This document shows positions 7,944 to 64,000 of a stretch of 64,000 nucleotides of DNA, in pieces (positions within the stretch are counted from its first letter, which is position 1; each line of letters begins with the position of its first letter). A program made the position numbers and the translations under genes. The notes beneath the pieces are model-generated. The model saw nothing but the letters and a program-made list of their open reading frames with translations. It did no database searches and had not been told where the DNA came from. The DNA is from Dacryopinax spathularia (Eukaryota; Basidiomycota; Dacrymycetes; Dacrymycetales; Dacrymycetaceae): the NCBI GenBank assembly GCA_037974965.1, contig JBBPFI010000005.1, positions 1,364,001 to 1,428,000 on the forward strand. The letters are read 5' to 3'.

Positions 7944-8329
7944 GATGGGCTCTGGGTGGGGTTGCGAGGTGGTGGTAGGAGGGAGGGAGGGAGGGGGGGA
8001 GGAGGGGAGATGTGTGGTGTGAGCTGGACGCGACTCATGATGATACACCTTCGGCGATAGCGGTACCACCAGTGACCGCTATCCCCGAGATGTGGACAAT
8101 CGTTCTTCAGATAGGAAGGGAACGTAAGTCGCTTCTCCCTATATTTATAGTCATGGTACAGCGTTCTGGACGACTCTGGGTAAATGCTATCCAGCAGCCA
8201 CTGGCAATGACGAGGAGAAGGAGATCGCATGCTATCCGCCGTCATGAGGGCAATACTGCGGACTTGTCTTGCTGGGTCCTGCACAGACCTGTCCCAGGGG
8301 CCAGGGATCTTTCACCTTGAACAGTGTCT

Positions 8330-13190: not shown

Positions 13191-13546
13191 AAAGAGAGCT
13201 ACCTCCGATATTTGCGGGCAATCGTTGAAGTGGGGAGAGCTTTGCCGCTTCTCGCTTCAAAAATTGGAAAGCATGTCAAAGAGCGCTGCACCATCTGAAC
13301 TACACTGCGGGCTCATGTTGTACACTGCCTTGCAATGTCTCTCGAGTTGACAAGCTTCCTAATCACATTCATCGAACAGTCCCTACACCAAGAACATACA
13401 TATTATCGAGACTGCTCACGGCAAATACCAAGAGAGCCCCTCAGACGTTGATCGTTTGGATGGAGAACTTTGGACATCTACCCCGGCGCATCAGAATTTT
13501 GGCGTTCCATGGTGCACGTCACTCCAGCTACTGTCTACAAGAGGTC

Positions 13547-20036: not shown

Positions 20037-20298
20037 CGTTCTGGTGAATTATGGAGATGGGATCAAGAGGAGGGAGGGTAAGCTCATTGTTGGAGCTGCT
20101 AGGCGACGCATTACAGGGCTCCGATATAAGATCCGTGACCGCCATCCCAAATGCTAGACTTTGAGAGGTAGGCGCTCGCAGATGAAGATCGACAGCGACT
20201 TCGTGCACAATCATTGAACCGGCGCCCAACGCTACCCGGGCAGGCGCATCACTTGCTATGCAAATCAGAGGGCAAGGCAGTGCATCGATACCCGAATA

Positions 20299-20322
20299 CA
20301 GTGCGACCCGCGATTAAGCATG
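20299..20322. repeat. Left terminal inverted repeat of the pogo element
   Basis: Begins CAGTGCGACCCGCG and is preceded by TA. Confidence 0.9.
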
Positions 20323-20420
20323 GGCTCGGTGGAAGGGGTCAGTTATGCTTATTCTCGGGCAATGCTTATTCAGGAGGGTGGAGGGACAGGTGATCATTTG
20401 TCAAGATACCGATGTTCTAC

Positions 20421-22141
20421 CTAGCGAAAGTACTTATCTAACGTGATTTGCGACTTTTTTTGTGCCTGATCATATTTGAGAGCTCGAGAGAGGCGAGGGA
20501 ACAGCCCTAGTGCTGCCTCATACTCCTTACCCACCCGTCCTTTAAACATGTGCGCAAGCTCAGTGATTGCTTCTAGCGCTTCCTGCTCGGTCCAGCGAGA
20601 CCCAGTCTCTGCAACCACATCATCTTCTGTGAAGCCCTCATTATGACCAGCGCTGATCCGGATATCAGATAATGTCTGCTCAAGGATATCGAGGTCATCC
20701 CATTCTTTCTCGGTTTCTTCCTCTTCCTCTGGGTTCAGGAGCTCTTCGATGGCCATGACACGGTTTCGGGCAATGATCCCTGTCTCAACCATGTTGTGAA
20801 GCAGCTCGCCAAGGCAGGATGTTGCAGCCTCGAGATCTTCGTCTTGAACAGAATCTTCAGGTGCAGGAAAGCGCTCGAAGGGAGTGTTTAGCGGCTTGCC
20901 ATCTGGGCCTCGAGGTGTGATGATTTGGACATGACGCCAGCAGTTGGCAATCGTCTTGCTGGTGACGCATTCCCAGGCTTGTAGGCAGAGCCGCATTGCT
21001 TCCAAAAGATTGACAGAGTAAATATCGGTCTCACCAAGCTCTTCCAGATCAACAGCCCGTTCACAGAAAAGGCGTTTATAGTGTGCCTTGAATGCTCGAA
21101 TGATTCCAGCATCGAGTGGCTGGATTCGGGATGTCATCTTGGGCGGAAAGAACTCAACTCGGATGTTGTGGATTGTTGATGCATCGTAAATATGGCTGGG
21201 GGCATTGTCAAGAAGGAGAAGGATCTTCCGCCCAGCTCGCCGCATTTGGAGATCAAGTGCTTCAAGATATCTGAAAGGCACTTAGCAAGCGGCCATGATG
21301 AAGAAAGCAAGCGGTACTTCTGAAAAATTGTGCTGGTCATCCATGCCTTCTTGTTGGCATGATAATTAAACCCCAACTGCGGTCCAGTCTTCTTCAGAAA
21401 GCATCGCGGCTTCCAGGCATGGCCGATGAACAGAGGAGGGAGCTGCTCTGTGCCTGTGCTGTTCACGGTGAATGCTAAGGTGATCCGATGCTTGTCGGTA
21501 GTCACACCAGCGCGGTTTTCAGAGGCAAGACCACGGTCTGGTGGCATGCGGTCATTGAGACCTGTCTCATCCATGTTGAAGATATCGTCAGGTGCAAATT
21601 CGTCTGTGATTGCAAGCAGCCTCTTCTGTGCTGCTTCGAGCTGGTCGGTATCGACGGATCCGGCCTCGCCATGAAACCTCCACTCCTTCAAGCTGTATCG
21701 CAGCTTAAACCTTTCCAGCCAGCCGTTGGAGAGTGAAAGGAACTCTTCTGAGTCAACGCCATGAAGCTGGGCATATCGACGCGCCTTGGTCCGCAGAACA
21801 TCACCAGAGATCTTCACTCCTTTCGCCTGCGCCTGGACCAGCCATGTCACAAGGCTCTGCTCCACATCCGGATACTCGGTTTTCCTGGGGCGTTTGAATG
21901 ATAGGTTGCCTTTCTGAGCTGCTTGGGTGCGGAGCTGCTGCTCGCTGGCAAGGAAGCGGGAGACCGACGACTGGGTTAGAGCTGGAAAGCCATTCTTCCG
22001 GAAGTGAGAAGCGATATCGGTTTGAGACTCTGTTGGATGATCTTTGGCATAGTCAAGGATAACGATTTTATCATGCAAAGTCAAGTTATGGCGCTTAATC
22101 TCCTCTTGCTCGGGCACCACTGCAGAAAGGGTGCGCTTCAT
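20421..22141 (-). CDS. Pogo/Fot1-like DDE transposase
   Basis: Two exons, 21318-22141 and 20421-21270, with a 47-base intron, give 557 residues. The ATG at 22141 (MKRTLSAVV) is preferred over an upstream in-frame ATG at 22288 because the DNA-binding domain begins soon after. Residues about 20-65 form a helix-turn-helix of the psq/CENP-B N type; about 85-160 is the CENP-B/Tc5 second helix-turn-helix (WLVQAQAKG, RYAQLHG, NGWLERFKLRY). The DDE core has Asp191 in FNMDETGL, Asp296 in LLLLDNAPSH and Asp328 in IQPLDAGIIRAFK. An acidic segment and a SQITLDKYF end follow. All three catalytic acids are present and no break was seen, so it may be active. Confidence 0.92.
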
Positions 22142-46258: not shown

Positions 46259-48187
46259 TTTAGAGGCAGTCCAAGCCCGTCGCCAGTCAATGCCTGCGTC
46301 CAGCGACCCTTATATAAGAGTGCTGTCAGCTCATAATACACGCTGTAAGTGGATTATAATGGAATGCGGAACCCTTCAGACATGAGGCAAGCCAGCCGAG
46401 CGCAATGCTCGCTCCATCTCGTACGAAATGCGACACATCGGAATTCGTGTCAGACTGAGACACGCGCTGACACAGCACAGTTGAAGCGGTGCTTCCAGTC
46501 CGGAGCGGCATTGTAAATCCATATGTTGAGTTGATGCCAAGTCAGAATTCGCTTCAGCAGCTGCCTGCTCCTGAGTAAAGATGCCCGTGGAAGCAGACTC
46601 AATGGCTTCGCGCGCCTAACTTCAGCTGAATACGGCCGATAGTTCTATACAGCCAGACCGCGAGTGGAGATCGTAGAACACACTGCATTCTTCTTGTCGC
46701 GGTCCATGATTGAGCGCTGTAGTTGCTGACATGGCGTATTCCCTGTTTGGGAAGGAAAAAGCCCTGAAGTAGTACGGGTTGGCCAATCACATTTGAAAAA
46801 GGCGACAAGCACTTCGGAGCGGGATTGCTTCTCCGATTCCTCAGCCAGACTAGCAGTCATCTTCAAGCCGAGCGCCCTCTGACTTGTGAGCTGCTGGTTC
46901 AACTGAGCATACCCCGCTCGGGATGGGTAATTGTGATCGACAGCAATAACACAATGCCGTTTACGGGAAAAGCCCTCCAGTGAGTCGGGATTGAAGAGCC
47001 GGGCAAGTACAAGGAGACAGTCGACGGTAGACTTGGTAAGATCCTCCAGCCGACTGAGCGGGGCTTCGACCTAGTCATGAGAAGCACCGAATGAGATGGA
47101 ATAATGAACGTCGGAGGTGCTACGAGATGAACAAGCGTTGTTGGTCCGCCTCGATCGGGATCGCCAAGGACACGCGTTGTTCAGGGCAGCCTCGTCATCT
47201 GATCCCGGTGTTTGCTGATATAATCGAGCTTGATACAGCGCCGTGACCTGCGCGACTGGTTCCGTACATACAACGCAAATCCCTGGCCAACGAAGTTGTG
47301 CCAGGTCTAACGGGTCGAAATGGGGACATCGGTCAGGGTCCAGATGCCCGACTCGCTTTCCAGAACCTTCCACAACCGGTCACGTGCACTCCTCACTCTG
47401 TATTGTGGAGGTTTCTCAAGCCCGAAGACGGGAAGGACGGAAGTAAAGCTGTGCGCTTGGGGTGACGATGATGGATAGGTGGGGTTTGGGTTTCTCTGTA
47501 TCTGTATCTTTGCTGGAGGCTCACTCGTCTGCTTTGATGCGTCCTGACTTAATAGAAGAGGAGGTAGATGTGGACGTGAATATGTTTGCGTTGCAGGAGT
47601 CGGGAGGTTTTTTTATGGAATGCATGATAGGGGAGGATAGTGCACGAGGACATGCAGCTCGGGAAGAGGTTGCTGCGCGTCAAGGATGGACTAGGGAAGA
47701 GCGGGAAGAAGTTGCGCGTTGCATCCAAGCCGGGAGGCCGTGTGAGGACGTTGAGGGGGTGGTGAACAATGTGGAGAGGCGCGCTATGGAAAGATTGCGG
47801 TCAGTGTATGCTTTGAATGGGTGGGTGGAGGTGTGTTTACAAGAATTAGGACTGTGCGGTCGCTGGGCTCGTCTGTGGGGTCCGTGCGTGGGGGTGGGTC
47901 CTCGGCGGGTGCGGCGGGCAATGGTGATGGGGTAGATCATGGTGGGTGGATCGTTCTCACGGGTTTATAGACATCGCTGACGGTCACGTCGCTGTTTGCA
48001 TATTTTCCATTTTTGTTGGCGGGGAACTTGGTCGCGCATGTCGGCTGGGCCTCTTGTGCTCGTTGGCGGTGTTGGGGTCGATGTCGTCGTTGACTTGATG
48101 TGACGTGATGATCTGGTGTTGCCATGTGCACGCGATGTTGACGGTGATGGTGTTGTGTGGTGATGCGTGTGTGTTGTGGATCGAATC
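46259..48187. other. Intergenic stretch, border between two composition zones
   Basis: Up to about 47400 only short frames; one on the minus strand (47071-47373) has cysteine pairs but no match. From 47460 the DNA changes to the GT-rich codon style of the Helitron region. The 157-codon frame at 47468 is listed separately. Confidence 0.4.
47468..47935 (+). CDS. Hypothetical protein upstream of the Helitron gene
   Basis: Open frame of about 155 codons from the ATG at 47468. It contains a charged helical middle (REEVAARQGWTREEREEVAR) and an Arg-rich end. No domain recognised. Same strand and similar codon style as the Helitron gene that begins 250 bases later; it could be an element-borne gene or chance. 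Confidence 0.3.
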   Translation: MMDRWGLGFSVSVSLLEAHSSALMRPDLIEEEVDVDVNMFALQESGGFFMECMIGEDSARGHAAREEVAARQGWTREEREEVARCIQAGRPCEDVEGVVNNVERRAMERLRSVYALNGWVEVCLQELGLCGRWARLWGPCVGVGPRRVRRAMVMG

Positions 48188-51100
48188 ATGGTGTGGTTCT
48201 TTTGGGGGAGTGCAGACGAGTCTAGGAGCATACGGATAGTGCGGTTGAGGGAGGAAGATGCGTGCATATATGATGGGGAAAGATTTGAGGATGTGATGTC
48301 TGTGTCTGATCTGGTTAATCTTTATCGTTTTGAGGGAGTGTGCGGGTCTGAGGACGATGCGATTCGGCGCGGTTGGTATCGAAGGGATGGTTATGTTTTA
48401 GTGCGATTGGGGGTTATATCAACACTCGTGAGCGGGTTCTCGTATCTGACAAGGCATGATCTTAGTGTCTTGTGCGCTTTACATGGCGTAAGGTGCCGCC
48501 ATCGGGGTTTGCGGAAGGAGGATGTCCGTAAGTTGTTGTGTGAGCACGTTTGTACCCCTCGGTGTACGCCGGGTGTTCTGTATGCGTTCCACGCCGTTCG
48601 GGTGCAGCGGATGGCGATCTTTCCCGCAGGTTCGCCATTTACGTCTGGAGTGAAGCGTGTGCTTGGTAATTCCAATGAGGAAGAAAGAGGTGGCAGGCGA
48701 AAGAAGCGGCCTAGGGAGGAAGGGTTAGGTGCACAGTGAGAAGTGGGTGGCTTTCCGTCCATACCAGGGAGTACGTTGGTTCGGGACATCATTAGGGAGT
48801 ACCAGAGTAAGACACGGCCAAGTTTCCTGGGGGAGGTGCCATGCGGTTGTTGTGGGGAGAAGGTCCGTAGAGGGGAAGTGTGCGTTGTGTCTGTCGGCGA
48901 CGTTCCCTTTGAATTACTTCGACCTGACGAGGACTTTCCTTTGCATCTTCGTCCCAACACGTACGCGGTGGAGGCTTATGATGGGGCAATTTTACATGCG
49001 AAGGCTCTCTCGTCTCCGTGGAAGAAGGAGGGGGTAGTGAACTTCTGTGGGGGTTGTAGGAGGGAACTTCTGTTGCGCAGGCGAATGCCCCGGTTGGCGT
49101 TGTGCAACAGATTCTATTATGCTTATGAGCATGTACCGTCAGACGTTTCCGATGCCTTTCGGAAGTCGACGTTTGTGGACTTGCGATTGGTGGCGAGGTA
49201 CAGTGCTAGCAACATTTGTTTTGCATACAAGGACGATCCTACCAAAGAAGGTCTTTTCGGTAGGGCGCTGTCGGGTGCGCAGAGGTTTTGTCGGGGAAAT
49301 ACGGTGATTTTACCTCGAGACCATTCGCGGATGGAGGAAGTGCTGCCTCCTAGTGTACAAACAATGAAAACAGCGTTTACCACTGTATTCGCAGGCGCAG
49401 AGGGATTGGATGATGCGAGCTTGCGGAAGCTGGCTCCCTTGAAGGCATCTGCGGCACGAGTCAGGTTGTTGATCTCCTTTTTGATTCGGGAAAATGACGC
49501 GTATGCGGTGGGTGTGGATGGGGATGGACCAGTCGGGTTTAGTGAAGCGAATATGCGCGAGCTCTTTGGGTCGACTGATGGAACGGATGAGGCTGGAGGT
49601 ACAGACGCACTTCCCGGTTGCATCGAGATTGGGAGGTTGTCTGGCTCAGAGTTGAACAGAGATCCGGATATTACTGGTCGGAATGAGCTTGGTGGTGTTG
49701 CGACGGGTGAGGAAGAGTTTTACATGGAGGCTTGCGGCTTTGTTAAGGGGGAGGTGTCGGGTCAGAAGTACCAGGCCATGAAGGCGGAGTGTCTCCAGCA
49801 CTGTTTAGCGGGTCGACCTTTCCTTTTGAGTAGGAGTGGCGGACGTCCGGTGTGTGATCGAATGAATCATCTCCTTCTGGGAGGCTTGTTTCCGCATTTA
49901 GATCCTTTCAATTTAGGGGGGTTTGAACACCCGGCAAGAAGGCGGTTTGTGGACATGGCAACACAATTGGGCCACTTGTTGAACATGTATGATAGTCCGT
50001 TTGAGAAGGATGCTCAATTTGTTTTTGTGTATCATAACATTTTGCAGAAGAGGAAAACCACTCGTGATGCGTTTTTCCGGGTTCGCCAAGTAGAGTGTGA
50101 TCGGTTGATTCGCGATATCATGAGTGTTCCATCTGGCGTTTTTGGTGACTTGGCTGGAAAGATAGGTAAGGACGGTAGCTACCGGGGAACGACGGATGAG
50201 GAGCGGAGCGCCTTGAGGGTCTTGCAGCGGCTGAATGTCGTACAGCGTGAAGTGCCAGGCTCGAACGGGTATAAGCAAGCTCGACGGAATGAGATTCGGG
50301 CGCTCATCCAAAAATTGGGCACGCCGGCATTGTTTTTGACATTGACACCAACAGACATTGACAGTCCATTGGTGCGCTTGTTGGCCGGGGAGGATGGGGA
50401 TGGGGCGGATTGGTGGTTTGTCGGTGAAACGTATGGTTCTAAGATGCATAGAGCTGCTCGCGTGGCTCGCAACCCCGCTGCGGCAGCTAGGTCTTTTCAC
50501 GGTACCATGGAAAGGTTCAGGGACATTGTTTTGCGTTGTGGGCGTGGGGAAGGGTTGTTTGGCGAATGCAGCGGAATGTATGGAATGGTGGAGGCACAGG
50601 GTCGTGGTACGCTCCATTGCCATATGCTCATTTGGTTGAAGGGTCATTCGAACCCGAAGGAGTTTAGAGAGCGGGTGCTGCGGGACGACCAGTGGAAAAC
50701 GCGTATGCTTGCCTGGTTAGAGTGGCATATCCGCTGCGAGCTGCCGGAGAATGTGGACGTTGTCCGTGAGCACGGTGCCCCTCTGCCGAAGCCAAAACAC
50801 AGTGCGGTCGAGATCAATCCGTGTACTTTACCTGGACCGGACATCGAGAGCATGGCTGAGGACGAGTTCTCCGTTGCATTTAGGGATCATGTCTCAGCGC
50901 TTGTGCAAGAAGTGAATTGGCACGAGCATAGGCCAACTTGCTTTTCTAGAGTGAAGGCGGGAGAAGTGCAGGGCGATTCAAATTGCCGTATGGGAATAGA
51001 TGGTGTGACACGAGCCGTTTCTGAGGTGGATCCCTGTACTGGGTCTATTGCTTTGAGAAGGCTGCATCCTCGCATCAATAAGTACAATGATGTCATCATG

Positions 51101-54100
51101 TTTCTGCTGAAGTGCAATATGGATATTCAGTTTTTGGGCTCAGGGGAGGAAGCGAAGGCTGCGGTGTATTATATTACGGATTACATAACAAAGCCTAGTT
51201 TGCCCACTCACGTGGGCCTATCGGTCTTGAGTCTTGCGCTTCAGAAACAAGATTTGGCTGCGAACGACTTGTCAGGCAAAGAGAGTCGGTTGTTTTTGAA
51301 TCGACTGGTGAATAGGATGATGGGTTCGCAAGAGATGTCGCATCAGCAAGTGATGAGTTATTATGTTGGCGGTGGTGACGTATATACAACGCACAGGTTT
51401 AGGACGTTGCATTGGGGTTCGGTCGAGAGGTGTGTGCGTGCAAGCGAGAAGGAGAGGGTTAGGAACGATGATTCGGCTTTCTTGGTCGGGTCCGGCGTGA
51501 ATACCAAAGATGCACGTGTAAACAGTGATGCGGACGAAGCGGTGGAAAGGATTGGGGCGCAAAGGCGGTTATCGATGATAGGAGAGCGAATCGAGTCAGG
51601 CGAACAGGTTGGCGATTTGAGTGATCCACATGCGGTTTTATCATTTGGAAACCATGGCATCACTGCTGTGCGGCAAGATGTGGATTACGTGTATAGGCCA
51701 AGGGAAGACGAGTTCGATAAGCTCTGCTTATATGATTTTGTGGCTTGCACGTACAAAGAGCTGATATCTGGTGGGGTGGGCGCAGACGATCCTTCGAGAG
51801 GAGGGGCGGAGGAAGAGGAACGCGGTGTGGAATCGGTGGGTGTCGTGAGGAGGGGTAGGCCAAGATTGCAGAGAGGAGCGTTTGGAGTGGAACATCCGCA
51901 GAGAAGTACTCACCGACTCCGATTAAGTAACAGTCACCTGGTGCCCGTCATACTTGGACCATCGCTGCCGCGAGAAGGAGGTGGAGAGCCGCAGCAGGAG
52001 GAGTGGTGTCGGGTGATGATGATCTTGTTCAAACCTTGGAGGCGTTTGGGGGATTTGTTGAACGAAGGAGAGGCGTGGAGTGCTGCTTTTGAGCGAGCTG
52101 TGTTCAGCGAGGAGCACTTGAGGGTCATGCGGAACATTGCGACGCTTAATGAATGTAAGGATGCCAGGGAGCGCCACGCGCGTTACCGGAAGGCGATGGA
52201 CGCTGAGGATGATTTTGAGGGTGTGGTAGAGGAAGATTCGGAAGATTCGGGCTCCGAGCAGATGGAGGATGGGGAAGTTACTGAGGGACGGGACCGGCGT
52301 GTGTTGGCGGTGGGTAACTTAGCTTCTTCGTATGGTCGAATCTTGGAGGATGGGCTTGGGGGCCGAGCGGTGACGGGACCACAGGACTCTTTGGAGTTTA
52401 AGGAGATGGATGGAAGCGAGCGTCGTTTGGTGCGCGAGTTTGGAAGCGTCATGGTGGAATTGCGGCGACAGCGAAGGCCGGCCGCGCCAGGAGGTGGCGT
52501 GATATACGTGCCTGTGCGTTCTGGTAACACGGATGTCAGAGGGCCAGAGATTACGGTCGCAAGTGCTCGCCCAGTGTCATCCGTGGGGGAGGGTGGTAGT
52601 ATATCGGCTGCCGTGGGTGAGGTAGATGGATGTGATCCTGTGGGGAGGGCGATCCAGTTGTTTTCAATGCAGGAGAATCCCGAGCAGTGCGCCGTGGTCA
52701 GGATTGTCGGTGACCATATGTTGAAGCGGAAGTCAACGCAGCTATTGATGTATGTGTCTGGCGTGGGCGGCACTGGGAAGAGTCATGTTATTCGTTGTTT
52801 GGTTGCGCTGTTTGACATGGTGGGAAGGGCTCGGTGTTTAATGTTGAGTGCGCCAACCGGGGCTGCGGCGATATTGATTAAAGGGTATACGATTCATGCG
52901 TTGACTTTGCTACCCAAGGGGGGAGGACGCGTCAACCTGGAGACTTTGGAGCCCATATGGCGTGAAGTGGAGTATTTGGTCATTGATGAGGTTTCCATGG
53001 TCTCGGCGTTGCTTCTGAGTCAGATCTCGGAGCGGCTGTGCTTAGCCAAAGGGGTCCCGGATGTGCCATTTGGGGGACTACACGTGCTATTCTTTGGAGA
53101 TTTGGGTCAGCTGAATCCGGTTCGTCAGCCTTGTCTGTATTCTCAGAAGTTAACGGGGAAGGTTTCTTTCAGTATGGGGCAATCGCTCGGGGGACAGGGT
53201 GCCTTGAGCGGTGCGGTGTTATGGAGACAGTTGAACGCGGTTGTCGAATTGCAGAAGAGTATGCGTCACAATGGTGACTTGCGGTGGGCCAATCTGTTAA
53301 GAAGGATTCGGCTGGGGCAAGCATGGGCGGGGTTGAAACCTCATTCCAGTGTACAGAGGGGGACTGGGGAGAATTATGTTTTGGGTGACTTCGAAGTGTT
53401 GCGGACACGATTGTTGGGACGTTTGGTAATCGATGACCCTTCTGTTATAGCAAGTTTTGAGGACGCGCCCGTTATTACTTGCACGAAGGACCTTTGCGAT
53501 GAACTGAATCAAGTTCTATCTCTTAGGCACTGCGAAAGGTTGGGGCAAGAATATATATGCTACTATTCCAACGATCGGCAAGCGAGGGGACAGCCGTTGC
53601 CACCAAAGGTTGCTCGTAGCGTGTGGAAGGCTTCATCGTCTTTAACTAAGGATGCTTTGGGTAGATTACCGCTTTTCTTGGGAATGCGAGTGATGGTGAC
53701 TGAGAACATCGCGATTTCGATGAACGTAGTGAATGGCGCGGAGGGTGAGGTGGTGGGCTTGAGATATTCGCAGCTTGGAAGTGGGGAGCGTTTTGCTGAG
53801 GTCGCGTTCGTCCGTGTTAGCGGTTGTGGTTTAGTGCACCCCGCACTTCCTGCGGATGTTGTACCGGTCATGCCTGTACGTTCGGCCTTTAGATGGAGGT
53901 CGCAGGATGGACGGGAGTACAGTGTGACCAGGCGACAATTGCCCCTCCTCCCTGCATATTCATATACGGATTACAAAAGTCAGGGGCGGTCGCTGGGTAA
54001 AGCAGTGCTAGATGTGGCCAGTTGCCGCTCGTTGGCGAGTGTGTATGTGATGTTGTCCCGGGTACCGACACTGAGCGGGGTGGCTATCCTACGAGAGTTT

Positions 54101-54199
54101 ACTACTCGGTATGTGCATGCGCAACTTGATCCTGCATTGAGGGTTGAGCTAGAAAGGTTGGCAAGCATAAGTCGTAAACCAGTTGTTGGATTAGAATGA
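48188..54199 (+). CDS. Helitron Rep-helicase (RepHel)
   Basis: Two exons, 48188-48728 and 48768-54199, split by a 39-base intron that joins REEGL to GSTLVRD; about 1,990 residues without a break. The first exon holds a SAP-like segment with a cysteine motif (ALHGVRCRHRGLRKEDV, LLCEHVCTPRC). Near residue 800 is the HUH motif in GTLHCHMLIWLKG, and near 980 the catalytic tyrosine motif AVYYITDYITKP. Together they form the rolling-circle Rep nuclease. From about 1,510 is a Pif1-family helicase: Walker A GVGGTGKS, Walker B VIDEVSMVS, then FFGDLGQLNPV and DYKSQGRSL near the end. Helitrons move by rolling-circle replication and often carry host gene pieces. All catalytic motifs are seen, so it may be autonomous. 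Confidence 0.93.
48188..54199 (+). mobile_element. Helitron, coding core (ends not located)
   Basis: Only the coding core is marked. Helitron ends (5' TC, 3' CTRR after a hairpin, between A and T) are too short to be found without another copy. The element could reach further on either side and might include the frame at 47468 or genes after 54.5 kb. Confidence 0.7.
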
Positions 54200-54560
54200 G
54201 TGATATTGAGACAGACTTGTGGGGTAGGTAAGAAAACAGTGGGACTAGAAGTTGTATGCGGGAAACTTTACTGATCGATTGTTGTAGTACAGTTAGGGGA
54301 TGATAAGGTCCTTTCATCGATGTAATGCGTTCAGCAGAGGTGCATACAGAGTGGGGAAGCGATCTTGATGACTGTACTAGTCCCCAGTGATTCGTACTGG
54401 CGGGTGTTGGTCAGCAGGAACCATGCTTATAGGATTGGGGTGATTGCCGAAAATGAATTGGTGTTCTTGCTAGGGTGCGGTTCCCTGTGATGTCAGCCAT
54501 GGACAAGGGTGTGGTAGTCTATGCGTGCACTAGGATTGCAGACTCGGAGAAGCTTGTGGT

Positions 54561-55987
54561 TCATATGTCGAGACTTTTATCGTCTTCATCCGCGTCTAGA
54601 ATGGCCTCATAGACGATGGGTGTGAATGACGGTGAGTTGGTAGCAGCCATGTTTGCGGTAGGTTGACGATTTCCGTTGTCGGAAGAATGGGAGGCCGCGG
54701 GCAGAGGGTCGGAAGTATGGTGGGCAGGCGTGTTGTGCCCCCAGTCTTCGATCGGATCGGTCATACCGACATCGGCTGCAGGAACGGGGTCGTCTGCTGG
54801 GCGACAAGGGGGTGGGGGAGAGATTGGTTCGCTGGTCGCTAGTATCCCGGTGAAATTCCAAGGGTGGGGAAGCGGTCTGTCGTTTGCGATGTGCGATGGC
54901 GTTATGGTGAGCCACAGGTTGTTAAAGGGGCCGTAGAAGCGCAGCGTAATATGCTGCTGGAGCGCCGACGCGCAGCGGATGGTAGCCTAGAAGATGCATT
55001 GGCCAGATGTTGTCACTTTGGATGTGATTTAACGTACGGCGAATTCTTGGACATGGAATGAGATGGATGTTTCGGGATAGTCAGTGTTGTAGGACAGCAG
55101 ATCGTCCGATTCGATGTTGAGAACCGTTGAAATGTCGCCGCCTGGAAATGGGAGGTGAATATTGGAGGTGTCGACGGAGTGAGTATAACGTACTTGAGAA
55201 CGCGTGGAGGATGAGCTCCGTATCGTATGCCCAAAGCTCGACCTGCCCGTCGGCCTTTGTCATAATGTGTTGAAGACGGGCAGCCATGGAGTTGATTTGC
55301 GGGCTGTCGAGGGTCATAATCTGTGCTGGAATGGTCGGGTCTGGGTCGATCACCGAGCGCTGACGTTCCGGTTCGTGTATGCAGATGGACCAGACCTTGC
55401 GGACGTCTGTGTGGGGCGATGGGCGTTGCATGAGCGTATGTTTGGAGCGCATATAAGTAGATAAGTTACCATATTTGCAATGCAACACGACTTCGAATCG
55501 GTACTCGATACTTGGCTCATCCTCGTCATGCACGACGAGAGGATGATTAGCTTTTAGTGCGATGGAGGCTGGGAACTGAAGAGATAAGTGAACCTCCAAT
55601 GTGTCCGATTGTCCGTTGGCGGCGATCTTCAGCGGGCGAAGGAGTACTCCGATTGGGATGGCTCCAAAGCACTCGTCTTCCCCGTCGACGTGGACATGGT
55701 CGTAACTTTCGAAGAATGAACGATGAAGTGTCAGAGTCCCCAATGTGGATTCGCTCATATTCATGGCAGACAGTATGACCTGGACGCGTGGTTTCACATG
55801 TGCGTGTCCCGTGTGTAGTGGTGGTAGGCGTACCTCATCTGGTCGCGTAATGAGATTGACCTCGTTACCATACTTTGCCAAGGCTCTCAAGCCGACAACC
55901 AGCACTAAGTGTCGGGCTGAGAAGAGAGGCTTTAGTGGAATATATGCGCGTACCTTTCGCATTTTCGATGCTCAGAGTGGCTTCCAT
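54561..55987 (-). CDS. Rad9-like checkpoint clamp protein
   Basis: Six exons (55954-55987, 55834-55904, 55470-55779, 55194-55406, 55038-55141, 54561-54986) give 385 residues. The fold pattern follows Rad9/PCNA: VLVVGLRALAKYGNEV, then VILSAMNMSESTLGTLTLH with FFESY, EVVLHCKY in the first half, ELWAYDTELILHAFS, and TSISFHVQEFAATIRCASAL with ITLRFYGPFNNLWLTI in the second. Rad9 is one subunit of the ring-shaped 9-1-1 clamp that is loaded at damaged DNA and activates the checkpoint kinase. The C-terminal tail is Ser/Thr/Pro-rich and ends in an acidic segment, as in known Rad9 proteins. Assigned from pattern only; it could be the cell's own Rad9 or a diverged paralogue. It lies tail to tail with the Helitron gene, 360 bases away. 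Confidence 0.72.
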
Positions 55988-56903
55988 GATCAGGTAGATG
56001 ACAGACAGTTATTGTGAGAAGTATGTGGATGTTGTCAGGTTGTTTGGGAGTGTTATGTGCGCGATGTGTGTGTGTTCGGTATGGTTTGGGAGGTCTGATG
56101 TGGAAGATGATGGTCTGGAAGAGGGATGGAAAGGGGGCGGGGGAGGAGACGCGAGCGCGGTAATAAAAGGGGTCGCGACGTGTTCCAGATCCGTGGTCTG
56201 CGCGGCAGATCGAAGGCGAGCATCATCGTATTTCGGGGTGGGGGGTCGGGAAAAGAGGGTCGGCGGGCGTAAGTGCGGGGACCGGAATAGCGAGGCTGGG
56301 TAGGTAGGTGATCAAGCCGCGGCGGAGTTCCGGAGTTGTCCCGAGGGTGCCGGTGCCTTTGGAGTACGTGCGCGTCTGTGAGAAACTGCATTAGATGTAA
56401 CCATGCGTATTTGTTGACTGGCCTCGCTATTGCCCCTATGGTCGAGAGGAGATGGAGATGTAGTAGGAGAGTTGTTGGGGATGTCTAGGTTTGGATCCAG
56501 GAAGGGACCGGTCGTTGTGGGTGTTTGTCTTTGTCAGGGTCTGATTGATGCCGTTTCCATTCGAGGAAGCGTTGTCGGGGCTACAAGAGGAAATGCAGTG
56601 TTGCCGGTCGTGCGCTACTTGGAGTTGTGAGGTGTCCGCTCGTTGTGCCTGCATATAAGCTGCGGGTGAGAGAGGAGGTACGCGGTGTTCATCTTCTCTA
56701 CAGTTGGTTTAGGGCGCAAATCTGCTATGTATGTCATCCTTGTTACGAAGGAGGGAGATCGTCGCGAGGTACCATGCCTGTGGTTGCGTAACATGGGGAT
56801 TCTCCAAAGTTGTGCTGAAAGTGGGTTTCCACTTGCCACGTGTGCGTGAATGTAGGCTGAATGAGCTGACGATGTGCTAGGTGCCGCGGGAGGTTTGCCT
56901 GTC
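55988..56903. other. Intergenic, upstream of the Rad9-like gene
   Basis: Purine-rich plus strand, short frames, no motif. Probable promoter region of the minus-strand Rad9-like gene and the plus-strand small gene. Confidence 0.4.
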
Positions 56904-57501
56904 ATGCCTATTCCGCACGTGTCGGCGTCGGTTTTGTCGAAGGTTTGCCTACTCTGCCATTCGGGTGTTGTTCAAGTTAACAGGTGCATTTTCCAGTTGC
57001 TTACCTGGTGCGAACATCACCAAGACGAGGAAGTAGATGGAGATTTGAAGGATGGTATGGTCTTTAGCGATTGGGATATGGCTTGGATTGGGGTGAACGT
57101 AGATGTGATGTGGGTGTTTGTGCATCTCGGGAGGACGTTCGGTGTATGCTGATGCTGGAGACAGATTTGAGATTTTGAAGGTGCTCTTTGGGTGCACGCT
57201 ACCCGTTTCGTTTCTAATAATGTGTTCAGGCCGCTGACTATTTGGATGCTCGTGGCATTGTGTACGTCGCGTGGATGTTGAGGTGTGGATGTGGTTGTCG
57301 GGATTTTGACGTGGATTGTAGCTTGTTGGCTCTGAAAGGGTTGGCAGATGCGTTGGATGGGCGGCGGCCAGACGAACTCCGGGCAGCATTGCATCTTCCG
57401 GCTGATTGGACAGAGGACGATGTGAGTGTGATGTTGTTGGCCCCTGATAACAGGTTCGGCACGCTGATGTCGAGCAACGTAGGCGCGTCGTGTCAATGTG
57501 A
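56904..57501 (+). CDS. Small hypothetical helical protein
   Basis: The 3' exons are clear: 57230-57282, 57322-57421 and 57454-57501, joined by introns of 39 and 32 bases. They read AADYLDARGIVYVAWML, then LLALKGLADALDG with LRAALHLPADWTEDD, and a basic end. The preceding exon ends EILK at about 57180. Further upstream, from the ATG at 56904, a frame with cysteine pairs (VCLLCHSG) is open, but I could not join it in frame. No known family. The short helical pattern and the W-T-E-D-D end are distinctive. Confidence 0.45.
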
Positions 57502-57611
57502 ATGTGAGGGAAAATCATCATCTATCATTCTGTCTATTTAAGCATGTTTAGCACTGGGCTGAGTTTGGCACGGGATGGTAACAGGAGAATGGAAATGCGG
57601 GGGGAGGTAGA

Positions 57612-58713
57612 TTAAATGTCCATGCAATCGTTCTCGTCGAGGAATTGCACGGTGGTCACGTCGTCGTTATCTGGGTTGAGTGAATCTGTTGTCGCTCTGA
57701 GTTTTGCGATTGACTGGAGAGGGTTGTCAGCGTTCCCCCCGCGGATGTTGGCCAATTTCACTGACCGGTGCTTGCAGATTGTCGTATGAGGCGAGTTGTA
57801 TGACATGCTCCAGTCTGAGGTAGAGGTTGAAGGTTTTGTCGTGCCGGTCTACCGGGTCGAAAGATATCGCGACATCTACGAAATCCCCTGCCTGAAAGCT
57901 CGCCGCATGGGCAGTTGTGACTCTCCCATCGTGTCGACGAGTTTCTAACCTGACGGGAGTGTCCAATGTCCAGCGGCGCTGGATTCGTGAAGCCGCTACG
58001 TCAAGGTGGTGCGTAACATGTTGGTTGGAGTGGTCGGCCACCGTCCCGTCCCTGATCGACCTGCTCTGTATCTGGTAAGGACGTGGGTGTGCGTTGCAAG
58101 AGGGAAGGCATCTTACTTTCGCGAAGGTGCGGCGAGTACATCGGATAGCATCCAGGTCATCGAAGATTTGATTATCGGCGCACACCGTGTTAGTAGTGGA
58201 CGCGTACCAACGCCGGATATGCTGGATCGTGGCCCACATGTCCGCCCATAAAGCCATATGCGAAGACGATGCAGGTTCAATGAAAACGCTGTTCATCGCA
58301 GTCATGCAATGATCCGGATGTCTGAGACTTGATTAGCTGGGCTGTCTTGAGATTCGAACTGCCGGAAGTGCTTTACCCGTCCCAGTTGCCATATTTTCCC
58401 AGCTGAGGATCCTTGAGGAAGCCTTGCAGGCGAAGCACCGCGATTCTCGGATGATTTGCGTTACCAGAATGAATCACAATGTCCTTGGTATGTCGGGTAT
58501 CGATCACTTTTGTTTTCGTCCTCAGGCAGAGCACGTTGCACACACCCTCGTAGTTGGACGGGATGGGCAGCATATTGTCAGGTGTGTCGACCGCTAGGAA
58601 GGCTTCCGGATAGGTCCATTTGTCTCGGATGAAGCAGTTTTGGTCGTCTGCTCGTAGTCAGAGTGGACGAGGCACGTTAGAGTGAGTAGCGCACCTTGGA
58701 TGAAGAGGGTCAT
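57612..58713 (-). CDS. Protein of unknown function, 300 residues (GDFVDV family)
   Basis: Five exons close exactly: 58695-58713, 58377-58647, 58117-58321, 57766-58071 and 57612-57713. The protein starts MTLFIQDDQNCFIRDKW. Recognisable points are LLPIPSNYEGVCNVLCLR-type text, DIVIHSG, HPDHCMTAMNSVFIEP, then near the C-terminus FQAGDFVDVAISFDP and YLRLEHVIQLA, and an acidic end (DENDCMDI). The last part resembles the LSRGDLVVLE region of the protein at 61394-62235 and may be a small beta barrel, but that is inference. The 45-base intron 58072-58116 is a multiple of three and leaves the frame open if retained. No known domain. Confidence 0.7.
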
Positions 58714-59318
58714 TGCTCTAGGAGTGTGCGATGTCCATCCAGCAAGCGAGTTAGTGCCTTTTATGTGTCATGTGGTGGTGTGGCTGTTGTGGGTTGCTTT
58801 CCACGCGAAGTGGAGGGGCTACGATGTGGCGGATAGCCGGCGGGAAACGGCATGCGGTGGTTGCTAATGGGAGTGGTGAGGAGTGATGTCGAATAGTTAG
58901 TACCTTAAGGAGGGTAAGAGTTAGCGCTGTGGTGCGGCAACGAGTAGCGGAGGAGCTTGATGGCTTGAGGGGCTTGCCCGGCAAGCGCTGAGCGGGAACG
59001 AGACCCAAGGCTGTTCCGGGGACCCTTATTAGTGGTCCGGGAGCTGAGTAGCGCAGCCTAAGTTTGCCCGTGTGAGAGTTTCTGAAATAACGTCATGATT
59101 TCTTTTGGTATAATTGTGTGATGTACAGCTTGAACACGTAAGGCTATGCATTGCGTCCATGCATGGAAACAGGAGACGGATAAAGGCGTAATGGGGGAAA
59201 AGGTGCGGGATGGATGTGGGTTTGGAAAGTCAAAAGCGGGAATAACTTGTCTGTTTGTAGCCGGATGAAGTAGCAAACTTGGTGGGATGGATGCAGAGGC
59301 GTGGCTTGGGATACACGT
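58714..59318. other. Intergenic, no gene recognised
   Basis: Lies between two minus-strand genes: promoter of one and 3' flank of the other. Only short frames. Confidence 0.5.
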
Positions 59319-60499
59319 CTAGTCGATGGAAAATATCCCCTTGATGAAGGCTTTCGTCTCTTGGTCCACGAGCGCGGCCAATTCGCGAACACGTTGTAGT
59401 GTGGTGGCGGCCTCGTTGGACGCTTCGGCAAGTTCGAGTATAGAGGAGATTAAGCGGTGGTGCTGTGCAGGAAATAGGTTGTTGTCCGACAGAAGTGCGA
59501 CCGAGAGCCGACGAGCGAAGTTGGGGTGCCGCCGGAGCGTCTCCATCCAAGCCGTTAGGTTCTGCGGCACCCTCTCGGTACGATTCTCTACATGGACTGT
59601 GGGCGTGGTTCCTTGATGCTCGATATCGGAAGTGGTCATGGAGGATATCTGACAAGACCGGTGACCGTTGAATAACGGGAGGTGTTCAGTATTGTTCGGA
59701 AGTATGCTTACCATTGACTCAGCTGAGTTATTGAGAACATTGCCGGTTTTGTGGTCTGTAGCGTTAGTACTTGTGGAGGGCAGGTCGGTATTCGCATATA
59801 GGGTTGGAGAGTGCGAAGTCGAGCAGTCGGGCGTCGAGAGGCGGGTATCGGTGGTGTCACTGTCGGAAAGCGAGGCTGCATCATTAGATGACTCCTGTAT
59901 GCAGGTGTGAGAGGCGAGAGAGTGGATGTGCGAAACGCACTGCATACATCCTCGCAGTCCCTTTCGTTCGCGCTTTGGTGCGCAGTTCCACTTGCCTTGC
60001 TGCCTCCCGGGGCTATCTGTTCTTTCTCTTCAAGTGGACGAGCACGTTTATGGCCGTGCGGAGAACGTTGTCTTGCCTTGGACGATTCACACGGTGTGGA
60101 AGAGTGTGGCGTGTTGGTAGCCTTTGAGCGGAGCATGTATGGCTCACGGGCGAAAGTGACGCGTTGACGACGGCCTGATGATGAGGACGCAATCTCGTTG
60201 TGAGCGGCTTGCTTGGTCTCCCGCGCTTTCACTTGACGAAGTTTATATACAGCAGGAAAATGAATCGCGTTTGGCTTTCTCTTTTGCTGAAGATAACCCG
60301 ACCAATCCTCTTCAGAAGTTAGTTCGTAACGAGCGTCAGTTAAGTCGTGAATGGTTCGCTTCCGCGCCTTCCTGTCCTTGTGTCGTTTGCGGTGTAAGTC
60401 GTCGAGGAAGTCGTTTTGGGTTCCTTCTTTAACAGCGGCTTGATACGCGGCTTCGAGTGCCTCCCACTCCTCGTCGGTTTGCTGGGTGCTTGCAGTCAT
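59319..60499 (-). CDS. Ser/Thr-rich protein of unknown function, about 354 residues
   Basis: Exons 59948-60499, 59712-59894 and 59319-59648. The ATG at 60499 gives MTASTQQTDEEWEALEAAY, an acidic helix, then a basic stretch (HRKRHKDRKARKR) that could be a nuclear localisation signal. The middle is Ser/Thr/Asp-rich and disordered. The end is folded-looking: LTAWMETLRRHPNFARRLS, HRLISSILELAEASNEAA and VDQETKAFIKGIF. The second intron (63 bases, strong gtaagc donor) is a multiple of three. No known family. It stands head to head with the small gene at 60875. Confidence 0.6.
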
Positions 60500-60874
60500 G
60501 GTGAATGAGGTTGGTGGTAAGTTGCCGGTCCGGATGTGTGACTTGGTCGGCGCCTATAAAGGGCGCCTGTCGGAGTTTATAGCGGAAGCAATGAGCGAGG
60601 CCCTGTGGGTCTGTGGTTGGGTCTCGCGGAGAGGCCTTGTCGTGGTGGATGCCATGAACCTGGGGTTCTCCAAGCGACGAGTGGTCGCCGATGGTGTCTA
60701 TGGAAAGCATTTGCTTTACTTTGTTATCTTCTGTGTACCCTCGTGATGAGGTAACGGGAAAGGAGTCGTGTTGGTTGGTATGTCTGTTCCAAGTCTCGTG
60801 GTTTACTATATAATTTTAGCGTGTGCAAGGAGACGAATGGACCGTATTGACCCGTCGCAGTCTCCTGAGTCGCT

Positions 60875-61149
60875 ATGGTCGGGGGAAAACGCAAAGCAGG
60901 GGAACAGGCAGAGAAAGGGGCTAGTAAGCTCAGGTGCGCCGTGAGCAGCGGATGATTTTCAGGCGGTGTACTAATGCACCATGCAGACGCGCAAACGCAG
61001 TTGTGCAGGAAAGCTCTGTACTGGAAGATATGGAAGGTGAACGGCCCCCTCGGATAGAGACGGGCAGCCAGAGGGAGGAGCAGTCTACCAGGCGAGCAGT
61101 TCCCTTTCGTATGATGCTAAAGCTCACGCCTTGTCAGGGCTTCGGTTGA
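60875..61149 (+). CDS. Small basic hypothetical protein
   Basis: ATG at 60875 gives MVGGKRKAGEQAEKGASKL. Removing a 29-base gtgcgc-to-ttttcag segment (60934-60962) opens the frame to 61149 with a cysteine pair and a Glu/Arg-rich stretch. A second 29-base gtatga-to-tgtcag segment at about 61110-61138 offers a different end near 61177. Such short introns are doubtful, so the model is weak. Confidence 0.25.
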
Positions 61150-61393
61150 TCCGTTTGTCCAAGAGGGTGTATCAATGATTGGGGAAGGTGTCGGGAGTGA
61201 GCAACCATTGAGCTCGTGGGTTTGCAAGCCTGGCTCGAGTTTTGCACTGATGCAGTTGTGTAGGTCGGGAGAGTGGCGGCCGAATAAATGCGCTCCAAGC
61301 ACGCTGTCTCCTTCGCGAGCGGGGTCGGAAGGATGTGAGCTGTCGCGTGGTTGCTCGCCGTGAGTAAATTGTTATGTTCATTGTCATTTGTGC

Positions 61394-62235
61394 ATGACGA
61401 TGCTGCCCAGGTTTGCCCTCTCACCTTCGGACGTGGAGGAGCCGCCCGAGATGGAAGACCTTCCAGTGCATGTACAAAAGTGAGTTGTTGGGATCCGGGC
61501 ATTACCACAGCTGCTCATTATTAAGGCGGTTGATCCATATGCGCAAGGAAGCGGATGCCTCCAGAGGTACCTACTACATCACGAAAGTGCCTCTGGATCT
61601 TCGATTGGGACGCGCGGATGGTTATCTGGATATGCGGAATTTCTTGGTCGGGTCGCAAAATAACGCTGTTCGGGTGTACGTCGCCGGAATCACGACCGCG
61701 GCGGATTTCAAGAATGGGCAGGGTACGCCGCAGCGACGTGTATCGATGACTATCAAGCCGTTGAGTGTCCGCGATTCTGAATGGGCGTCCCGTCTTTATA
61801 ATGAGTACTCATCGCCGCAAGAACGTGAGGGGATTGATATTAGGTTGGTTGTGTATTCATTGTTTCAACAGAAACTACAAAGGACAGCTTCTTACAGATC
61901 CAAGCAACACGTTGGCAGACGTCGTTTGGTGCCCCGCGAGAGTCCCCTGTATGTCGCTGTCTCCGTTGTAGAGATCTTGCTTACGGAAAGGGTAGGGCAA
62001 TGCGTTCACGCAAGTGTTTTTGGCAGAGCGGAGTATGCGGGAACGCAAGGCTTGGTCGGTCAATGACCTATCCCGAGGGGATTTGGTCGTTCTTGAAACG
62101 CGTCTTCGATTACGACGGAACGAGGTAGGGGCACGCACGATGGAATTCCAGCTTCAGGCCGTGAATGTTGTCGTTCCCTGTGCCAGAGATTTGGGTAGTT
62201 CACAAAGCGACGTGGTTGATGAGGTGGATTGGTAG
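61394..62235 (+). CDS. Protein of unknown function, 233 residues (GDLVVL family)
   Basis: Exons 61394-61479, 61526-61843, 61872-61948 and 62015-62235 close in frame, ending at the TAG at 62233. The second intron would be only 28 bases (gttggt to caacag), yet the frame before and after it is convincing on both sides (REGIDIR, then NYKGQLLTDPSNTLADVVW). Other features: DGYLDMRNFLVGSQNNAVRV and RRVSMTIKPL, then WSVNDLSRGDLVVLETRL and FQLQAVNVVV, and an acidic end. The C-terminal part resembles that of the 300-residue protein at 57612-58713. The beta-rich pattern could be an OB-type fold, but I cannot show it. Confidence 0.6.
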
Positions 62236-62722
62236 TTGGGATGAATAGATGGGAGCCTTGCAAAGCAAATCAAGAGCGCAAATGATTCGGTTTCCTGAAT
62301 TGTCTGGTACGGTTGTCGCGTGTTTGGGTACAGTCAGCATGAGAGCAATAATATGTGTCCACGATGATGCCTGTCGCTCGTGCGGGCCGCGGAGGCCAAG
62401 GACTACGCGTCGAATGCCAGTTAGTCCAATTCTGTCCCATGGCGCGCTGTATGACGCGTCCCGCTAGGGTAAGAATCCTCTCGAAGGCGGACTTCGGCAT
62501 TACCGTGTTTCCTTTTAAAGTCGCGTTTACGTTAGTACCCGAATTGGGGTGTCGGTATCGCTATGTATCGTTCAGAGGAAAGGATTGGTTGCTTTCTGTG
62601 TTGCACTGAGCCGAAGCCGGGTGACGAGTACTGCCATAGCGCGTGGGCCACTATCAAGACGTGGATCTTTGTGTATTTAAAGGCGGTTGTCAATTCATTC
62701 ACTTATTGTACCCAACTCCAAT

Positions 62723-63710
62723 ATGGCTCAGGTTGGCATTCCTGAAGAGCTTCAGGGTGTCATTTTCGCAGCCGGCGATGCGGCAGTGTTCGTGCGGTCA
62801 CTCGGCTGTACAGTTTCGGCGCGTTCACTGGCTAGGATTGGTCGACCTGTCCTTGCACTTTGTTCCATTCGAGCGCTGTGCTCAGTGGACGCAGGAGGAG
62901 AACTTGACAAGATCATAGTGCGTATTCACTCTGTTCTGGAAAGAGCTGCGTGACTCCAAGTTCGAGTAGGAAATCGAGGCTCGCTTCCTCGGTAATGGAA
63001 CCTATCAGCGCTGGGCCGCTCTTCTACCTATGCCTTCGGGCCTGGCCGATCCTCAGAGTGTGAGAGGTGGAGAGGTGTCATCGTTGTTTGCGTATTTCGG
63101 GGCTCTGGCGTTGTCGAACGAGCTGTCCAGGGCGAATCACATGGTGGAGTCCTGGATCGGTATCACGCTGAGGGATCAGCAAAGGGCGTGGTTGGGATCT
63201 AGCGATGATATGCTCGCTGATGATCACATGGCAAGAGAGGATGTCCCACCCGCCTTCCCCATGGTGGAGTGTGACTGGATGTACCGGTCGGCGGAATCTC
63301 CACAACTCCCGGCGACGGAAGAAGTCTTAGCGTCTCCCATGTTGTTCTTCAAGCAATTCGCTCTCCAACGCGGCCTGTCTGTGGGAGAGTCTGCCATCTC
63401 GAGTGGACCGGATCATTTGCCAACTTGGCTCTGCAAGTTATACTGTAGGATGGTCGTGGTTCCTCCGTGGTTGTGGTTTGCTGATGAATTTTCCCAGTGA
63501 ATGGCAGCGATGTGCCATGTGGGGAAGGAGTTGGGCGGAGCAAGAAGGAGGGCTACCGCAATGCGGCGCTTATGGCTTTGGAGCGGTTAGACTGGGTGTG
63601 CATGCTCTTCGGAAGCTGCTATTTGATATTGATTGTTTGGATGTCGGTAGGTGCCAGGCGAGAAGGACAGCTTGGGGGGGGAGGGCGACATGCCAGCCGA
63701 CGATGATTAA
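62723..63710 (+). CDS. RNase III-like (inactive) plus dsRNA-binding domain protein
   Basis: Four exons (62723-62917, 62970-63444, 63498-63595, 63651-63710) close exactly to 275 residues. Residues 187-254 form a full dsRNA-binding domain: MLFFKQFALQRGL, SSGPDHLPTWLCKLYLNG across an exon joint, then CGEGVGRSKKEGYRNAAL and MALERL. The part before it resembles an RNase III domain in outline: ARSLARIGRPVLALC stands where active enzymes have ERLEFLGDAVL, and SSLFAYFGALAL where they have DVFEAYIGALYL. The metal-binding Glu/Asp residues are missing at both places, so no cleavage is expected. This is the plan of non-catalytic relatives such as mitochondrial ribosomal protein mL44, or of RNA-binding partners of Dicer. 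An acidic tail (PADDD) ends it. Confidence 0.72.
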
Positions 63711-64000
63711 CAATGGATTCAACGACATGTGTTTCTTATTGCGACCGAATAAAACTCGATGTAATGATTGCGGTCCTTTCCAGCAGCTCATTCTCTCATT
63801 CTCTAATGAAGATGTGTTACATGTACGTTGCGCATCAGGGTGTTCTCAGTTCAATGTAGAATGGAGTCTTTTGCGCTCGAACGTCGAGACCGTTGCTTCT
63901 TTGCCTTACCTTTGCGGAATTTTTCCGTGGAAGGGTCAGGGGGTATGCCAGCTTTACGATCGCGATTGTTCTTAGCTCGTCTTGCGCTATCTCTTTCGCC

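Follow-up and report, generated by a model that had tools for sequence, protein, structure and literature searches.

A Rad9-type clamp gene and its neighbors in Dacryopinax spathularia probably form part of a giant Helitron

Genes at the locus

We analyzed a window of 64,000 nucleotides from the basidiomycete Dacryopinax spathularia (assembly GCA_037974965.1, contig JBBPFI010000005.1, positions 1,364,001 to 1,428,000 of the forward strand). The right part of the window holds a Helitron Rep-helicase gene (g1) followed by a cluster of genes (g2 to g8), among them one for a Rad9-type sliding clamp, which together probably form the left part of a giant Helitron (Table 1). The genome amounts to 29.2 Mb in 24 contigs, and the one containing the window is called C5 below. 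An earlier note on this DNA, made from the sequence alone, had placed multi-exon genes between 54561 and 63710, and our models span the same interval with the same limits.

Table 1. Positions of the features predicted in the right part of the window
Feature	Position	Strand	Basis or remark
Left 16.7 kb of the probable giant Helitron	47278..64000	+	Runs past the right edge of the window; 99.67% identity to C6, sharp left edge
Left terminal block with hairpin	47278..47351	+	Hairpin 47282-47305 with GAA loop; recurs at other loci
g1, Helitron Rep with PIF1-type helicase	48216..54199	+	Pfam; frame broken in window copy
g2, predicted Rad9-type sliding-clamp protein	54561..55987	-	Pfam Rad9; RAD9A alignment
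g3, predicted Skp1-like protein	56727..57683	+	C14 member against SKP1 structures; this model probably retains introns
g4, conserved Helitron companion, no assigned fold	57612..58713	-	18 loci, 16 with Rep
g5, serine-rich protein	59319..60499	-	Gene model
g6, conserved Helitron companion	60875..62235	+	N-terminal KRK; acidic C terminus ending in W
g7, dsRNA-binding domain protein with probable degenerate RNase III-like half	62723..63710	+	Pfam dsrm
g8, 3' part of a large protein, no assigned fold	63851..64000	-	Model from the C6 copy; rest beyond the window

The Pfam matches of g1 (Helitron_like_N, 4e-31; PIF1, 6.8e-17; DUF6570, 7.9e-17) point to an HUH two-tyrosine Rep fused to a PIF1-type helicase, the combination that characterizes the Helitron superfamily. 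The earlier note had judged this gene to look intact; however, the window copy has an in-frame stop at 48737-48739, and the same frame is open for 2011 residues in a second copy on contig C6. The motifs HCHM, YYITDYITKP, and GVGGTGKS, which we take to serve the Rep and helicase functions, lie downstream of the break, at positions 625, 809, and 1340 of the window's Rep frame. Six of the other gene models were checked in both the C5 and C6 copies, and none contains an internal stop. The AP-type endonuclease domain that marks Helentrons was not found among the Pfam matches of the 1818-residue g1 frame.

The Rep domain was found at 45 loci in a search of the genome. In the protein collection searched, the four closest Reps are from Calocera viscosa and C. 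cornea, with 64-67% identity. In a Rep tree drawn from this genome and 15 of 120 listed proteins (SH-aLRT support, quick search, long branches flagged), the Reps of the copies on C5, C6, and C14 group together (96%) as sister to the four Calocera Reps (97%), and those of C18, C8:1251 kb, and C5:1069 kb fall outside this assemblage. For 4 of the 13 genomic sources of the tree (C1:2180, C15:90, C2:1468, and C8:684 kb), which all belong to the most distant group of Reps, tblastn returned no row. That divergent group comprises these four loci together with C5:590 and C2:2053 kb; its identity is ~22% where aligned (two of the six), and neither g4 nor g6 was detected at any of the six.

The g2 protein matches Pfam Rad9 above the curated cut-off (6.9e-7), as do two relatives (2.8e-17 and 1.6e-15), in agreement with the Rad9-like clamp proposed in the earlier note. 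A single clamp sequence gave no match in the PDB, but a profile of three family members did, aligning with human RAD9A at 3.3e-5 with both halves colinear. Identity among family members is 34-40%, and the tails of three members have DPIED and F-x-P motifs in common. The family is thus predicted to consist of two-domain RAD9 homologues, resembling the RAD9 subunit of the 9-1-1 clamp in having a two-domain clamp fold followed by a tail, but strongly diverged and encoded by a transposon. No homologue was found in the protein collection by a search that depends on shared 5-residue words.

Residues 51-138 of the g3 protein from the C14 copy aligned with SKP1 structures at 2e-10. The N-terminal part of g3 aligned solely with plant SKP1-like chains, and its Pfam matches are under the cut-off. 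The protein is predicted to adopt the Skp1 fold with its C-terminal dimerization region. The earlier note had also recognized a double-stranded RNA (dsRNA)-binding protein, and g7 indeed matches Pfam dsrm above the cut-off (4.1e-6); the dsRNA-binding domain exceeded the cut-off in all three members scanned. A relative on C18 combines dsrm (2.2e-6) with a match to Ribonucleas_3_3 (2.4e-6) that is under the curated cut-off, and an RNase III-like match was obtained in this relative only. The acidic residues that we presume to be the signature of RNase III are not visible in g7, so its RNase III-like half is probably inactive.

No known Pfam domain was found in g4, g6, g8, g9 (a gene to the right of g8), or the gene at the right end of the element. 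The best PDB match of g8 had an E-value of 0.52. The seven g6 homologues found are all from Calocera, and none was found in viral contigs. An OB fold was considered for g6 as an idea only; PDB profile searches were null or gave one match at E 2.1. Similarly, Pfam gave no support for the right-end gene as a nucleotidyltransferase. The earlier note had pointed to two proteins sharing a GDF/L-V motif, namely g4 and g6, but profile comparison detected no kinship beyond the motif (probability 0.1%), and common ancestry was rejected.

Copies, ends, and companion genes of the element

The window from 47278 to 64000 aligns with C6:1168172-1184894 at 99.67% identity over 16,723 bp, with 55 substitutions. 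The match begins exactly at 47278, to the left of which the flanks of the window and of the C6 copy are unrelated. The C6 copy spans ~42.3 kb from its left start to a right-end block. A diverged relative on C14 spans 35.1 kb, with ends matching those of C6, and the two are colinear along their length by tblastx except for ~9 kb found in C6 only. Another member of the family, at C5:1821230, lacks a Rep; it has the left end, a remnant of the Rep C terminus, and relatives of the clamp, the Skp1-like gene, g4, g6, and g8.

Canonical Helitron1 elements begin with 5'-TC and end with CTRR-3', with a hairpin 10-12 nucleotides before the 3' end. The first 63-74 bp of the present element recur at C14, C5:1821230, C17, and C4 with 86-91% identity, so that the left terminus is common to six loci in total. 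Its hairpin has a predicted energy of -8.6 kcal/mol (z -4.8). Four copies have AATCCC at the left end, preceded by differing flanks; TC thus follows AA. At the other end, C6 and C14 terminate in a common 31-bp block with 87% identity, which places the right end to within ~15 bp in the two copies. No CTRR border could be fixed, and neither the exact right border nor the constant dinucleotide at which Helitrons insert, without target-site duplication, could be read from these copies. In both copies read to the end, the 31-bp block opens with GTTGGCCAGG; its inverse, CCTGGCCAAC, lies close to the left end, and each 10-mer has a single plus-strand occurrence in each sequence. The element has asymmetric terminal inverted repeats, a feature of Helitron2; another is a hairpin at each terminus, of which a stable one was found here at the left.

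The earlier note had offered two readings, of which a giant Helitron carrying the cluster is supported by the sharp common left end at six loci, the near-identical second copy at an unrelated site, and the right end defined by two diverged copies. The approach it had suggested for finding the ends, the alignment of several copies, succeeded on the left at six loci and on the right in C6 and C14. Between the C5 and C6 copies, 37 of 45 transitions show A or T in the window copy, which seems accordingly to be the more decayed, as if by C-to-T change. The C6 copy also contains tandem arrays at C6:1193373-1194985, with a 209-bp unit repeated 2.9 times and a 63-64-bp unit repeated 15 times.

Genome-wide, g4 and g6 accompany Reps. 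Locus counts are lower bounds, and matches <3 kb apart on one contig strand were counted as one. Of the 25 g6 loci, 24 follow a Rep at a distance of 4.3-11.4 kb and share its strand; ~0.2 such loci are expected at random (25 x 45 x 12 kb/(2 x 29.2 Mb)). Of the 18 g4 loci, 16 follow a Rep but face the other way. The other reading in the earlier note, a host gene group with common composition, does not agree with these counts, since only one g6 locus and two g4 loci are away from a Rep, and one of each belongs to the Rep-less member of the giant family. The clamp has 19 loci (17 rows plus the C5 and C6 copies; several rows are weak, with E up to 0.165), of which five follow a Rep at 5.2-5.4 kb and are on the strand opposite to it, one is the Rep-less C5:1821230, and 13 are elsewhere. 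The 45 Reps divide into 14 with g6 only, 6 with g4 only, 5 with both, 5 with both and the clamp, and 15 with neither detected. As only five Reps have a clamp, most Helitrons evidently do without it. The partnership of clamp and Helitron raised by the earlier note is real in one family, including its Rep-less derivative, but does not extend to most clamp loci.

The C18 element, which has g4 and g6 but no clamp, also contains a g7-like gene, oppositely oriented, together with two genes that are partly related to the right-end gene. The Helitron core thus looks to be Rep, g4, and g6, perhaps with g7 and the right-end gene. In the giant layout, the clamp and Skp1-like genes lie between Rep and g4, and g8, g9, and a second PIF1 helicase lie between g7 and the right-end gene. 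This helicase was identified near the right end of C14 (1.4e-34), with a corresponding stretch in C6. The earlier note had spoken of cargo. The genes do ride on a Helitron, but the word probably does not suit all of them, since Helitrons without a clamp are also accompanied by g4 and g6, and one of these has a g7 relative as well.

In all nine gene comparisons nonsynonymous change (pN 0.26-0.42) is far below synonymous change (pS 0.72-0.81), with pS saturated in five. Nonsynonymous change is much the lower for the clamp, g4, g6, g7, g8, and g9. These genes are probably not random captures. Three of the seven Calocera g6 homologues and the three best Rep matches are on contigs of equal size, an agreement in size between contigs that were themselves unread.

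Strand asymmetry and a possible second module

Intergenic GC skew of the C6 plus strand declines from left to right, with values by sixths of +0.35, +0.37, +0.15, +0.03, 0.00, and -0.13, and the C14 copy gave +0.20, +0.13, +0.27, +0.06, -0.06, and -0.22. Plus-strand GC skew at fourfold sites in C6 was +0.43 for plus-strand genes in the first sixth and +0.17 and +0.24 for minus-strand genes in the second and third sixths, so gene orientation fails to account for the skew of the left half; the gene models of the right third are unsure. Among possible causes, the gradient agrees with repeated copying from one end or with one strand being left exposed.

The earlier note had described the codon use of the cluster as like that of the Helitron and unlike that of the genes further left. 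This is true of the plus-strand genes (r 0.67 with Rep and 0.29 with the left genes) but not of the minus-strand genes (r -0.38 with Rep and 0.67 with the left genes), the left-gene set consisting of eight gene models only. Codon use was rejected as a sign of common origin; the common feature is a G- and T-rich plus strand, intergenic DNA included.

The clamp, g8, and PIF1 genes also occur together away from Reps. Relatives of g8 were found at 35 loci (64 rows, one match taken per locus), and 23 of these have a non-Rep PIF1 gene within 10 kb, in 20 cases on the opposite strand; 0.74 are expected by chance. The PIF1 loci were counted in the same way (31 from 109 rows, with matches inside Rep frames excluded), in a list that is incomplete, the PIF1 genes of C6 and C14 being missing from it. 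A g8 relative lies within 15 kb of 14 of 20 clamp loci, the list of 20 including an additional weak match at C5:990 kb. Within the 10 kb of C5:147501-157500 we found genes for a Rad9-type protein (4.4e-18) and a PIF1 helicase (1.2e-34) as well as a relative of g8, and none of the listed Helitron Rep domains falls there. From this co-occurrence, the giants look like the product of a fusion between a Helitron and a second module. In the giants themselves, PIF1 and g8 are on the same strand, ~14 kb apart in C6 and ~5 kb apart in C14, and the genes may have moved in either direction.

The Rep-less set of PIF1 and g8, mostly divergent and sometimes with a Rad9-type gene, is possibly an undescribed class of mobile element. 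KDZ elements were rejected as its mobilizers, as all 52 KDZ matches are more than 30 kb from any of the 19 clamp loci; the nearest is ~34 kb from a weak clamp match on C13. A Rad9-type gene at C3:1068 kb (7.1e-16) has no Rep or g8 nearby and may be the host's own. Several arrangements of such genes are repeated in the genome. C5:147501-157500 has a near copy at about C5:196-206 kb. Rad9-type, PIF1, and g8 matches occur in the same order, mirrored, over ~60 kb at C1:2465-2529 kb and C8:320-378 kb, and inverted pairs of Rad9-type matches 14.4 kb apart have the same layout at C10:1139283-1153658 and C2:1810613-1824988.

Interpretation and comparison with known elements

The best overall explanation, to which we give a probability of about 0.78, is that the cluster belongs to a giant rolling-circle transposon, a member of the Helitron superfamily, and falls within its left 40%, with gene roles as follows. 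Rep would start at the left hairpin end and peel off one strand. As companions of most Helitrons of the lineage, g4 and g6 might assist Rep at the element's ends or act on the strand that is displaced, and g7 could bind dsRNA from convergent transcription and so blunt silencing. The giant family would have gained a module of clamp, PIF1 helicase, and g8, kin to the Rep-less clusters, together with a Skp1-like adaptor. The clamp would most likely let a single strand of 35-42 kb be copied or tolerated. We lean, tentatively, towards its loading at the element's own primer-template junctions. It is almost as likely that it pairs with host Rad1-Hus1 and dulls the checkpoint triggered by long single-stranded DNA; some other use is rather unlikely.

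Several observations weigh against this explanation. The loci read include no empty site. The right end is known from two copies only, and of its own copy the window shows no more than the left part. No stable hairpin was found at the right end, which did no better than shuffles in both copies. Forty of the 45 Reps lack an adjoining clamp, those with no detected g4 or g6 add up to a third of all Reps (15), and no Rep is close by at 13 of 19 clamp loci or at 29 of 35 g8 loci. An F-box-like gene of C6 and its neighbor, a 966-residue model, have no match in C14. The same is true of g5, for which blastp found no relative in the C14 or C5:1821230 copies. Finally, the gene models come from a home-made finder and are crude.

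A recent duplication would likewise leave two copies with 99.67% identity over 16.7 kb or more, and no empty site is among the loci read. The cluster could then be a group of host genes, or a duplicated segment, beside an ordinary small Helitron, the second site having been made by duplication and not transposition. We regard this as very improbable. The identity begins precisely at the terminal hairpin, a terminus present at four more loci with other flanks, C6 and C14 finish in the same short block holding the inverse of the left end, and g4 and g6 hold their place and strand beside Reps throughout the genome. Helitrons are usually described as a Rep-helicase with passively captured scraps, and passive capture of neighboring genes without a role in the life cycle would suit g5, the F-box-like gene, and the 966-residue model. 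Helitrons of Pleurotus are described as having 1-4 "captured genes" of unknown origin downstream of Rep (PMC4289320). Nevertheless, we consider passive capture improbable for the giants, in which the order of clamp, Skp1-like gene, g4, g6, g7, g8, g9, and PIF1 is kept despite saturated or nearly saturated synonymous sites, and pN is well below pS where measured.

An alternative that deserves some credence concerns the role of the clamp. It could be a decoy that forms a mixed 9-1-1 ring with host Rad1 and Hus1 and damps the DNA damage checkpoint, with the Skp1-like protein steering a host ubiquitin ligase, instead of taking part in copying itself. The clamp is Rad9-like rather than PCNA-like, both halves are kept, and its tails have the DPIED and F-x-P motifs; moreover, the deubiquitinase domains of Helentrons indicate that Helitron-type elements do engage the ubiquitin system (PMC9741609). 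However, the same element has a PIF1 helicase, and another adjoins a clamp at a locus without Rep, which suits a role in replication no less well. A more elaborate version of the giant Helitron, which we think rather doubtful, is that a Helitron with its own helpers (Rep, g4, g6, g7, and the right-end gene) was fused with the clamp, PIF1, and g8 module of a second, undescribed multicopy element class. The product would be a self-equipped replicon that uses a clamp and a helicase of its own to copy itself from one end, and this copying would have left the GC skew gradient along its 35-42 kb as a mutational trace.

Starships are giant fungal transposons with many genes and, at one end, a mobility gene that encodes a tyrosine recombinase. 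The present giants differ in having a Helitron Rep and Helitron2-like ends. Closer parallels are FoHeli1 and FoHeli2 of Fusarium oxysporum, Helitron2-type elements of ~5-6 kb that likewise have a Rep-helicase, asymmetric terminal inverted repeats, and a 5' hairpin with a GAA loop (PMC5148889). Unlike them, the D. spathularia elements are giant and showed no stable 3' hairpin, and they have a clamp, a Skp1-like gene, and a second helicase, which the accessible part of that report does not mention for FoHeli; according to the same source, some Helitron2 members lack the 3' hairpin (PMC5148889). The HELPO Helitrons of Pleurotus ostreatus are also basidiomycete elements with extra genes downstream of Rep. 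They are 1.5 to 13.7 kb long, and their extra genes are described as captured and patchy (PMC4289320), whereas the giants are 35-42 kb long and their genes keep the same place and strand in many copies. Helentrons whose Rep protein includes a VTD or OTU deubiquitinase domain also bring a ubiquitin-pathway function to a Helitron-type element (PMC9741609), but in the giants the Skp1-like gene is distinct from Rep, and Pfam gave no endonuclease domain for the g1 Rep.

In the literature searched (titles and abstracts, with few subscription journals or preprints), we found no giant Helitron and no Helitron with Rad9, a sliding clamp, or Skp1. As far as this search extends, these giant Helitrons, a family that has a conserved set of genes of its own, are of a known kind, and their size and clamp are new. 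One lineage keeps helper genes at a fixed place and strand, and its giant branch has a clamp, a second helicase, and a Skp1-like gene under selection, which suggests that the transposon carries part of its own replication or checkpoint toolkit. If the clamp and its companions do serve transposition, the needs of a Helitron beyond Rep become testable by gene removal. The strand-skew gradient offers a second handle on the copying of a rolling-circle element in the nucleus.

Further left in the window, on the minus strand, a gene model at about 19600-21400 resembles what we take to be a transposase of the pogo/Tigger type. Two gene models on the same strand, at about 7400-8100 and 13250-14900, contain near-identical stretches that are presumably aldo/keto-reductase-like and appear to be duplicates.

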